Positions 2,805 to 5,643 of a stretch of DNA of 64,000 bases are shown piece after piece. The position numbers and the translations under genes were made by a program. The notes below the pieces were generated by a model. It searched no databases. It worked only from the letters and a program-made list of their open reading frames with translations, and was not told where the DNA came from. How positions within the stretch are numbered: position 1 is the stretch's first letter; every line of letters starts with the position of its first letter. Origin of the DNA: Lachnospiraceae bacterium (GTDB lineage: Bacteria; Bacillota; Clostridia; Lachnospirales; Lachnospiraceae); assembly GCA_024693845.1 (NCBI GenBank), contig JAILKJ010000003.1, positions 1 through 64,000 of the forward strand, in the 5' to 3' direction.

Positions 2805-2833
2805 TTGACGCATTTCTGATAGAGTGGTATACT
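2805..2833 (+). promoter_or_regulatory. Strong sigma-A type promoter
   Basis: TTGACG (2805-2810), a 17-base spacer and TATACT (2828-2833). The predicted transcript starts near 2840 and runs through about 420 non-coding bases before the first gene at 3261. Confidence 0.8.
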
Positions 2834-2839
2834 ATTATT

Positions 2840-3240
2840 AGGAGGATATTGGTTCAATGTGACAGTTTGAGGCAGATGTGACGTCACTTTGGATTCAGTA
2901 GTAAAGATCAGGGCGATCTGATGCCCCGCTGTTTATAACAGTGGACGTTATCAATCACTGTCAGATTGATAATGATCGCGAATGAAGTAGTTAATGCGGT
3001 TTCATCTCCGGATATGCCGCGAGCGGATTGAGTGATAGTTATTCACTCTTAATGGGAAATATGATGCTTTTGCATATAAGATGATGTCGGATTATAAGAT
3101 CCGTACCTAACCATCCGAACCGGAGCAAACAGATTAAAGAGATCCAGATTCAAGTGATAAAGACTTGGGTTTAGATTTAGAACCAATCTGTTTGCTATAC
3201 GGTTTAATCGGGTGGTTCTTTTTATTTTTGCCCGATTCAA
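2840..3240 (+). ncRNA. Hairpin-rich leader or stand-alone structured RNA
   Basis: Downstream of the promoter at 2805 I can fold a series of local hairpins by eye: ATCAG/CTGAT (2907-2922), CTGTT/AACAG (2929-2941), TTATCAATC/GATTGATAA (2948-2972, 9 bp), GAGTGA/TCACTC (3030-3048), CGGAT/ATCCG (3088-3103), AGCAAACAGATT/AATCTGTTTGCT (3124-3196, 12 bp perfect with an inner CAAGT/ACTTG hairpin) and AATCGGG/CCCGATT (3206-3237). There is no convincing ORF inside. It could be a long regulatory 5' leader of the DUF6462 gene or a separate small RNA. I recognise no known RNA family. Confidence 0.5.
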
Positions 3241-3260
3241 TATGGATTGGAGAAAAAGTT

Positions 3261-3497
3261 ATGCCCAAAGAAAGAGCAGAGATTAATGTAGATACCCTGA
3301 AAAGATTGGTAAATTCGGGGCAGAAAAAATTTGTGAGATATGATGAAGGAAAGGTTTTATACTCCATGGGATTGCACTCCTTTCAGGAACTTGCCAAGGA
3401 GGCAGGGGCTGTTTACCACGTAAAACGTATGGTACTTGTAAATACGGAAAAGATTGATAGCTATCTTGAGAATTTTTGTGATCCAACGGATGACTAA
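3261..3497 (+). CDS. DUF6462-type small protein of integrative elements
   Basis: The protein has 78 residues from the ATG at 3261, preceded by GGAGAAAAAGTT. The ORF track begins at 3165, but that extension lacks a ribosome site and runs through the hairpin sequence. Segments such as FVRYDEGKVLYSMGLHSF and LVNTEKIDSYLE match what I remember of DUF6462 proteins. These are small, possibly DNA-binding, and usually sit next to tyrosine integrases in Lachnospiraceae elements. A role as an excisionase-like factor or element regulator is inference from that context. The stop codon lies at the start of a large inverted repeat. Confidence 0.7.
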   Translation: MPKERAEINVDTLKRLVNSGQKKFVRYDEGKVLYSMGLHSFQELAKEAGAVYHVKRMVLVNTEKIDSYLENFCDPTDD

Positions 3498-3648
3498 AGT
3501 GATTATTTTAACTTTACGGTGAACTATGACCGCAGTTCAGCGCATCTTGACCACACATGAGAGATTTAGCTACAACCTGCATATGGGAGCATGTTCTATG
3601 TGTGAAATACGCACCAGCATATGCGCTGAATTTGCGGATAATCACTTT
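3496..3648. other. 153-bp nested inverted repeat (cruciform or structured RNA)
   Basis: Outer arms AAAGTGATTAT (3496-3506) and ATAATCACTTT (3638-3648) are perfect complements. Inside them CGCA-g-TTCAGCGCAT (3531-3545) pairs with ATGCGCTGAA-tt-TGCG (3621-3636), and CACACAT (3552-3558) pairs with ATGTGTG (3598-3604). The left arm includes the stop of the DUF6462 gene. No U-tract follows, so it is not a standard terminator. It could be a small RNA, an oriT-like hairpin or a recombination site. Confidence 0.7.
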
Positions 3649-3693
3649 AATATGTAGTTTATTGATAATTAACTGAAAAAAGGAGATAAACAT

Positions 3694-4095
3694 ATGAGAA
3701 AACTTAATAAAACAGAAAAAAGTGAAGCAACAAAGCTGCTTTCGATGTTAGCTGTGACACTTAGAATTATCTATCACTTGATCATAGAAGCAGAGAAGTG
3801 TGCTAACCAGATGCAACGTTTCGAAATCAGAACAAAACTGTTGGTCGGCACACTTTGCCAAGCGAATGCTCTTATCCAAAAAGCAAAACGAAAGCTATTC
3901 GAAAGTGTATACCATCAGGTGGATAATGCACATATATACTCAGTGGATCTTGACGATATCATGTGTAAGATGAACTATTCAGAGGCATACCAGCATATCT
4001 ACAAATTAAGGATGGATATTGTAGATGCTGCTGTCAAAGATTTGGCAGATGGAATGTATCAGTTTATCACAGAGGATGAATTTAAAAACAAGTAA
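3694..4095 (+). CDS. Hypothetical small helical protein of the mobile element
   Basis: The protein has 133 residues with a good ribosome site (AAAGGAGATAAACAT before ATG). I do not recognise the family. The sequence is mainly helical and basic in its first half (MRKLNKTEKSEATK, later RFEIRTKLLVG), with several Cys residues that do not form a clear metal site. There is no signal peptide or clear membrane helix. It lies between the DUF6462 gene and the RHH gene, so it is probably part of the same element. No function is proposed. Confidence 0.65.
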   Translation: MRKLNKTEKSEATKLLSMLAVTLRIIYHLIIEAEKCANQMQRFEIRTKLLVGTLCQANALIQKAKRKLFESVYHQVDNAHIYSVDLDDIMCKMNYSEAYQHIYKLRMDIVDAAVKDLADGMYQFITEDEFKNK

Positions 4096-4198: not shown

Positions 4199-4378
4199 AT
4201 GCCAAGAAGAGAAGGCGCAGGAAGACCTAAAATGGACGATCCCAAAGCGAATAAAGTCAGTGTGAGACTCTCCAATGAGGATCTTAAGCGCTTCGAGGCT
4301 TATGCAGAAAAGCATGGTCTATCCAAAGCAGATACCCTTAGGAAAGCTGTAGAAGAGCTTCTTAAAAGGGACAAGTAA
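4199..4378 (+). CDS. Ribbon-helix-helix (CopG/Arc-like) regulator, 59 aa
   Basis: This gene is too short for the ORF track. Translation from the ATG at 4199 gives MPRREGAGRPKMDDPKANKV, then VSVRLSNEDLKRFEAYAEKH and a second helix containing LSKADTLRKAVEELL. This is the beta-strand plus two-helix layout of RHH DNA-binding proteins, with a basic N-terminal tail. GAGGTG precedes the start. It sits 35 bases before the integrase and behind its own promoter, so it is a plausible element repressor or integrase regulator. The target operator is inferred from the inverted repeat at its promoter. Confidence 0.75.
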   Translation: MPRREGAGRPKMDDPKANKVSVRLSNEDLKRFEAYAEKHGLSKADTLRKAVEELLKRDK

Positions 4379-4413: not shown

Positions 4414-5643
4414 ATGGCAAAAGAAAAAAGAAAAGATAAAAAAGGCTACATGCTAAGGATCGGTGAATGTCAGCGAACTGATGGAAGGTATTCCTATTCT
4501 TATACAGATAGGTGGAAAAAACGCCATACTGTGTATGCGAATTCGTTGGTAGATCTTAGGGAAAAGGAAAAGCAGATCCGTATGGATATCGATTCGGGAA
4601 TCAATCCGAATGCTGCAAAAGCCTTGACCGTCAATGATATGTTTGACAGGTTCATCGAGCGCAAGTATGATATCAAGCCTACTACCAGAGCCAAGTATTA
4701 CTTTGATTTTGATCATTATGTGAGAGAGGGCTTTGGAAAACAGAAGATTGGTGAAGTTCATTATTCCGATGTAAAGAAATTTTATTACGATCTTCTCGAA
4801 GGGAATAAACTGAAACCCGGAACACTCGACGGGGTGAACACGGTCCTGCATCAGACATTTCAGCTTGCAGTAAGAGATGAAGTAATCAGGGGTAATCCGA
4901 CAGAGGGAGTCATGGCTGAGATCAAAAGAAGTGATCTTTGGGTTAAACCGAAGAGACATGCCTTGACTTTGCCGGAACAGAAAGAACTGATGGACTATAT
5001 CAGTGATAATCATATGTTCAAGGGCTGGGTCCCTCTCATAACAGTTCTTTTGGGAACGGGAATGCGTATTGGAGAATGCTTGGGACTGCGTTGGGAAGAC
5101 ATCGATCTCGATAAAAGGCTCATCCGCGTAGACCACAATCTTGTGGAATACAAGGATAAGAAGCTCGGCAAGATGGTTCACAGCATCCAGAGTACAAAAA
5201 CGAGAGCAGGTGTGAGAGTCATTCCTATGATTGATGAAGTGTATGAAGCCTTTATCACTGAGTTTGAGTTCCAGCAGTGTACCGGCTTCTGTACGGAAGA
5301 GATCAGCGGATATTTGGGATTCATCTTCGCTACCACAGACGGGAATGTTATGAAGAGATCCGCTGTCAACAATGCAATCCACAGAATCGTTGATATTCAT
5401 AACGAAGAGGAAAACAAGAAGGCAAAAGCTGAGAAGAGAGAACCGAATCTCATTCCGCAGTTTACGGCCCACCAGCTTAGGCATACGTTCTGTACGAGGT
5501 TCTGTGAAAATGAAACTAACTTGAAAGTGATCCAGGAAATCATGGGACATGCAGACATCACGACGACTATGGATATCTATGCCGAGGCTTCTCCCGAGAA
5601 GAAACAGGAGATCATGACCAATCTGCAGGGAAAGATTTTTTGA
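4414..5643 (+). CDS. Tyrosine recombinase / integrase of the element
   Basis: The protein has 409 residues and starts after GTGAGGAGAAAGG. The core-binding SAM-like region (about 68 to 150) contains LTVNDMFDRFIERKYDIKP. The catalytic domain shows GTGMRIGECLGLRW with the first Arg near residue 217, HQLRHTF (His353, Arg356), MGHADI (His379) and the Tyr nucleophile near 389 in MDIYAE. All catalytic residues appear intact. The length and the N-terminal arm-binding segment resemble Tn916-type integrases. It lies last in the element, pointing outward, so the attachment site should be in the following 250 bases. Confidence 0.93.
   Translation: MAKEKRKDKKGYMLRIGECQRTDGRYSYSYTDRWKKRHTVYANSLVDLREKEKQIRMDIDSGINPNAAKALTVNDMFDRFIERKYDIKPTTRAKYYFDFDHYVREGFGKQKIGEVHYSDVKKFYYDLLEGNKLKPGTLDGVNTVLHQTFQLAVRDEVIRGNPTEGVMAEIKRSDLWVKPKRHALTLPEQKELMDYISDNHMFKGWVPLITVLLGTGMRIGECLGLRWEDIDLDKRLIRVDHNLVEYKDKKLGKMVHSIQSTKTRAGVRVIPMIDEVYEAFITEFEFQQCTGFCTEEISGYLGFIFATTDGNVMKRSAVNNAIHRIVDIHNEEENKKAKAEKREPNLIPQFTAHQLRHTFCTRFCENETNLKVIQEIMGHADITTTMDIYAEASPEKKQEIMTNLQGKIF

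Follow-up and report, generated by a model that had tools for sequence, protein, structure and literature searches.

A structured, probably regulatory leader ahead of a DUF6462 excisionase-like gene in a Lachnospiraceae mobile element

Genes and features of the locus

The window, a stretch of 64 kb from a Lachnospiraceae bacterium (contig JAILKJ010000003.1), comes from a contig that begins within a mobile element of this gut or rumen-type bacterium; a right-end att site was not located via a second copy. Among the upstream genes, one encodes a SEFIR domain and fits PADLOC's model for bSEFIR defence (E 1.9e-88); another encodes a type I restriction subunit, of which the C-terminal part is present. 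The features relevant here are listed below, with positions counted in the window.

2519-2791, no strand assigned: three diverged 44-nt repeats with 92-95 bp spacing and a fourth, partial one, upstream of the promoter
2805-2833, plus strand: sigma-70-type promoter, TTGACG-17-TATACT, with extended -10 (TGG), 10 of 12 consensus matches
2839-3104, plus strand: 5' part of the leader RNA, folding z -2.5
2840-2845, plus strand: AGGAGG at the predicted 5' end, 11 nt ahead of ATGTGA (read from the sequence, as is the next feature)
2857-2862, plus strand: start-stop codon pair ATGTGA, with a second copy at 2876-2881
2847-2900, 2926-2944 and 2946-2974, plus strand: well defined hairpins, p about 0.85-0.98
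3110-3229, plus strand: terminator-type hairpin with T-rich tract (3217-3229), outer stem p 0.97, -46.6 kcal/mol, z -6.9
3232-3250, plus strand: small hairpin (3232-3239/3243-3250), p 0.95
3261-3497, plus strand: DUF6462 gene, 78 aa, excisionase-like (Pfam PF20063, E 1.2e-26)
3495-3655, no strand assigned: second long imperfect hairpin, 160 nt, from DUF6462 to the next gene, z -4.0 on the plus and -3.6 on the minus strand
3694-4095, plus strand: 133-aa protein (p133), to which database searches assigned no family
4199-4378, plus strand: ribbon-helix-helix (RHH) protein, 59 aa
4414-5643, plus strand: tyrosine integrase (PF00589, 5.1e-28) with a Tn916-type N-terminal, arm-binding DNA-binding domain (PF02920, 3.5e-17)

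The predicted fold of the DUF6462 protein (pLDDT 75) resembles the RdfS excisionase 8dgl (prob 0.96, TM 0.52/0.58, E 0.07) and also matches the Pukovnik Xis 4j2n, both weakly. Together with the Tn916-type integrase downstream, this excisionase-like fold indicates that the leader heads an excision-integration operon. The second hairpin (3495-3655) has perfect 12-bp outer arms, lacks a T tract and is single copy in the genome.

A first-pass annotation of the sequence had described a strong consensus promoter followed by about 420 nt of RNA without an ORF and then by a 78-aa gene. The promoter is the top of nine promoter-like sites in 2.5 kb. Since chance alone would yield 8.3 such sites at the looser cut-off, it is plausible rather than proven. 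Transcription would start at about 2840. The description was confirmed: about 390 nt separate the promoter from the DUF6462 gene without a credible ORF, and the ORF listing contains no plus-strand frame of at least 40 aa wholly within the leader. A 63-aa minus-strand ORF with a TTG start does lie wholly within it. The DUF6462 frame can be extended upstream to a TTG at 3165, but its homologs begin where the ATG at 3261 would lie. With tblastx and tblastn, no coding similarity was detected between the leader and the fetched loci, or between the leader and the proteins of ~190 aa encoded ahead of DUF6462 in relatives; a decayed copy of the gene for these proteins was rejected accordingly.

The repeats at 2519-2791, which share a AAAGnCCATTTAT core and are accompanied by CCCATCTTTGG repeats, may be a protein-binding region, with arm sites or regulator sites as candidates. 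By eye, similar AAAGTCYATTC repeats are seen upstream of the operon in loci L117, L016 and L120. Further upstream, within a 1.3-kb non-coding region, ACTACGTCGTA occurs four times at 2275-2368 in inverted and direct orientation.

Folding of the leader and its terminator-type hairpin

The sequence from 2839 to 3260 folds at -139.3 kcal/mol (z -6.4), and none of 100 shuffles folded as well; z values for the leader range from -5.4 to -6.4. The at least seven inverted repeats of up to 12 bp perfect pairing noted in the first pass are borne out by 10 pairs of 8 nt or longer, among them a perfect 12-bp pair at 3124-3135/3185-3196. Folding is uneven, however. Whereas 3105-3230 reaches z -6.9, the 266 nt of the 5' part (2839-3104) reach only -2.5, and 2975-3104 is poorly defined in the predicted fold. 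Nearly all excess folding is carried by the 107-nt hairpin 3110-3216, and the earlier statement that the structure exceeds that of a normal leader is therefore only partly right: most of the excess stability belongs to one terminator-type hairpin. Across the 64 kb, the best 200-nt window of the leader ranks 7th of 638 window-strands, six being equal or better.

The hairpin is built from an outer 9-bp stem (3110-3118/3208-3216) and two inner stems (3124-3135/3185-3196 and 3146-3155/3163-3172), and stands about 30 nt ahead of the DUF6462 start. UCUUUUUAUUUUU lies directly 3' of it, so that a stable hairpin is followed immediately by a U tract, as is typical of intrinsic terminators. It does not have the compact G+C-rich stem with a short loop that is also typical: the outer stem encloses 89 nt, which are mostly paired. 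A simple terminator scan misses the hairpin because its loop limit is 8 nt. Judged by its modelled fold, 3110-3216 looks like an intrinsic terminator.

In folds of nascent lengths, 3110-3118 has no strong partner before the 3' arm is made, and then pairs with it (p 0.97); the hairpin is therefore predicted to be on by default. These folds predicted no mutually exclusive antiterminator hairpin of the kind found in riboswitch-like attenuators, and a two-state attenuator was rejected on this ground. Of the ribosome site GGAG (3249-3252), the first two G fall within the small hairpin at 3232-3250.

Folds of the minus strand are stable too (z -5.3 for 3105-3230, -2.3 for 2839-3104 and -5.05 for the leader overall), and folding alone thus does not decide between a function as RNA and one as DNA. 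If the region acted as DNA, the hairpins would be palindromes in integrase arm sites or in a transfer or replication origin. The direct repeats at 2519-2791 and the ACTACGTCGTA repeats at 2275-2368 lie just upstream and would suit such a role, but they end before the promoter. Over 2839-3230 the plus-strand fold is lower by 31 kcal/mol and has many G-U pairs, and only the plus strand carries the T tract. We regard a function as DNA as very improbable.

Relatives of the leader and leaders of other DUF6462 genes

No Rfam family matched the leader at gathering or relaxed thresholds. For pemK RNA (RF02913), the leader stays below the covariance-model score of 34.8 bits and gives no match even at E 10, and the same genome holds no pemK RNA elsewhere. 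A second copy of the leader was not found in its own genome, and a multicopy insertion was rejected for this reason. DNA comparison with 98 relatives yielded no homolog; a match to 2998-3029 in a genome of the same genus is antisense inside a coding region that reads as topoisomerase-like and was judged a chance hit. Phage records and 72,556 plasmids (the latter searched by distant blastn) were likewise without a homolog. Covariance models built from the single sequences 2839-2976 and 3105-3222 had no hits in 97 fetched loci, and the model of 2839-2976 gave no credible hit in 299 genomes. When 295 genomes of the order were searched at the DNA level, only matches of chance length came back; those with E 0.003-0.009 and exact 18-mers, spanning 18-44 nt with no DUF6462 or integrase nearby, were rejected. 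Overall, roughly 700 relatives were searched by DNA comparison and covariance models, in genome sets that overlap, and no homolog emerged. The closest DUF6462 relatives found (69-73% identical) have other upstream regions, and no homology links the present leader to those of other DUF6462 genes.

Terminator-type hairpins were present within 320 nt upstream of 32 of 100 DUF6462 genes, compared with 16 of 200 stretches drawn at random from these loci, a control that is not matched for intergenic position. A recurring hairpin of the form RGGACATTTTCTAAAGAAATTTAGAAGATGTCCYTTTTT stands upstream of DUF6462 in loci L044, L055, L026, L022, L012 and L067. In several loci this hairpin comes after a gene whose C-terminus reads as lysyl-tRNA synthetase, so the gene may be an integration site. 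Another terminated leader, nearly identical in loci L117 (~5310-5480) and L016 (~960-1130), consists of a promoter and, after it, two short terminator-like hairpins; it stands at the operon head, upstream of a 186-aa gene and DUF6462.

Several sister elements carry the cis-regulatory pemK RNA of Rfam ahead of DUF6462, in five of them at 106-164 nt from the gene match. This RNA occurs in 96 of the 299 genomes of the bacterial family; loci with it include L123 (2473-2536, minus strand), L125 (2497-2552, minus strand), L145, L154, L155, L168, L170, L171 and L173. DUF6462 was nearby in 4 of 30 pemK RNA loci, and others precede ParA-, ParB-, PemK-like or Tn916-type Xis genes, as assigned by eye without a profile search. 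Because pemK RNA thus precedes several kinds of mobile-element genes, it probably serves operons more generally as a leader, perhaps as an antiterminator, instead of being specific to pemK.

Possible function and comparison with known systems

The leader is real, probably regulatory and of a known general kind, and heads the excision operon. The order of the parts, from the promoter through the structured RNA, the terminator-type hairpin and the partly covered ribosome site to the excisionase-like gene and the integrase, agrees with the first-pass idea of a complex regulatory leader belonging to an integrative element. The other first-pass idea, a novel small RNA, gained no support but was not refuted either. 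As a concrete form of the regulatory leader we propose, at about even chances, a terminated untranslated leader whose 5' part governs read-through into the excision-integration operon of DUF6462, p133, RHH and integrase genes. Transcription would start near 2840 and stop by default at the 3110-3216 hairpin and its U tract, which would leave a short transcript of about 385 nt and keep excisionase low. On activation of the element, polymerase would pass the terminator and the excision genes would be expressed, with the partly covered ribosome site as a second brake. Use of the promoter, termination at the hairpin and control of read-through by the folded 5' part are our inferences; the 5' part would most likely act as a canT-type cis-acting antiterminator or else through an element-encoded factor. 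What the analysis computed is the promoter match, the gene order, the weak match to an excisionase fold and a stable hairpin (p 0.97, z -6.9) followed by UCUUUUUAUUUUU some 30 nt from the gene. The hairpins ahead of 32 of 100 DUF6462 genes and the pemK RNA in the same place in five other elements also argue for a terminated leader. Against it stand the missing homologs, the lack of an antiterminator hairpin, the modest 5' part (z -2.5) and the 89 nt inside the outer stem.

The z value of the 5' part would equally suit an ordinary spacer, in which case the hairpin would only insulate the operon against upstream transcription, like T1 of Tn916. DUF6462 genes elsewhere often follow simple terminators, several of them just past the lysyl-tRNA synthetase-like host gene, which is in keeping with insulation. 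However, the cargo genes are separated from the terminator by a good extended -10 promoter, which would fire straight into that terminator, and we consider pure insulation rather unlikely. The same promoter, with a terminator directly 3' of the structure, would also suit an independent structured non-coding RNA, about 385 nt long, that has its 3' end at the terminator and works in trans, while DUF6462 would be weakly expressed by read-through. The ends of such an RNA could pair, UAGGAGGA with UCUUUUUA (predicted p 0.82-0.85), but three of the eight pairs are G-U and the pairing uses the U tract. Known large bacterial RNAs are widely conserved, whereas this one has no homolog in the collections searched and no Rfam match; an RNA acting in trans is thus an unlikely explanation.

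For the terminated leader, the nearest experimental parallel is canT of Tn916, a 452-nt cis-acting RNA antiterminator between orf8 and xis that lets polymerase pass terminators (PMC11658703). Like canT, of which 341-452 nt are active, the leader is non-coding and has a comparable length and a complex predicted fold; it sits on the coding strand immediately ahead of xis-int, in an element whose integrase is of the same type. A terminator is present in both elements; in Tn916, T1 insulates and controls the element genes (PMC11658703). No resemblance in sequence between the two RNAs was seen, as judged by blastn against the 72,556 plasmids, which are expected to hold Tn916-like elements. Furthermore, canT has a more distant promoter, Porf7, and its targets, after excision, are terminators beyond the other end, whereas promoter and terminator flank the leader directly. 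It speaks against a canT-type reading that canT is dispensable for Tn916 excision and acts on genes far downstream (PMC11658703).

The processive antitermination RNAs conAn, EAR and put (PMC8955417, PMC11658703) are also structured leaders near the start of terminator-containing operons. No sequence relation to the leader emerged, in a comparison that covered those with families in Rfam, and antitermination by the leader itself is our conjecture. That it represents a class of processive antiterminator RNA of its own, acting in cis, without sequence kinship to canT, conAn, EAR or put, with its own target terminator attached and residing in the excision operon of an integrative element of this bacterial family, seems doubtful. 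Control of excision-linked genes by termination and antitermination has only recently been shown, for Tn916, and the leader would, if the proposal is true, add an independent case from gut and rumen elements with defence genes, which have been little studied. The pemK RNA of the sister elements is, like the leader, a structured RNA ahead of DUF6462. It differs in its size (about 52-128 nt in the genomes searched) and has no match in the leader; as a conserved family, it is the better starting point for testing such RNAs.
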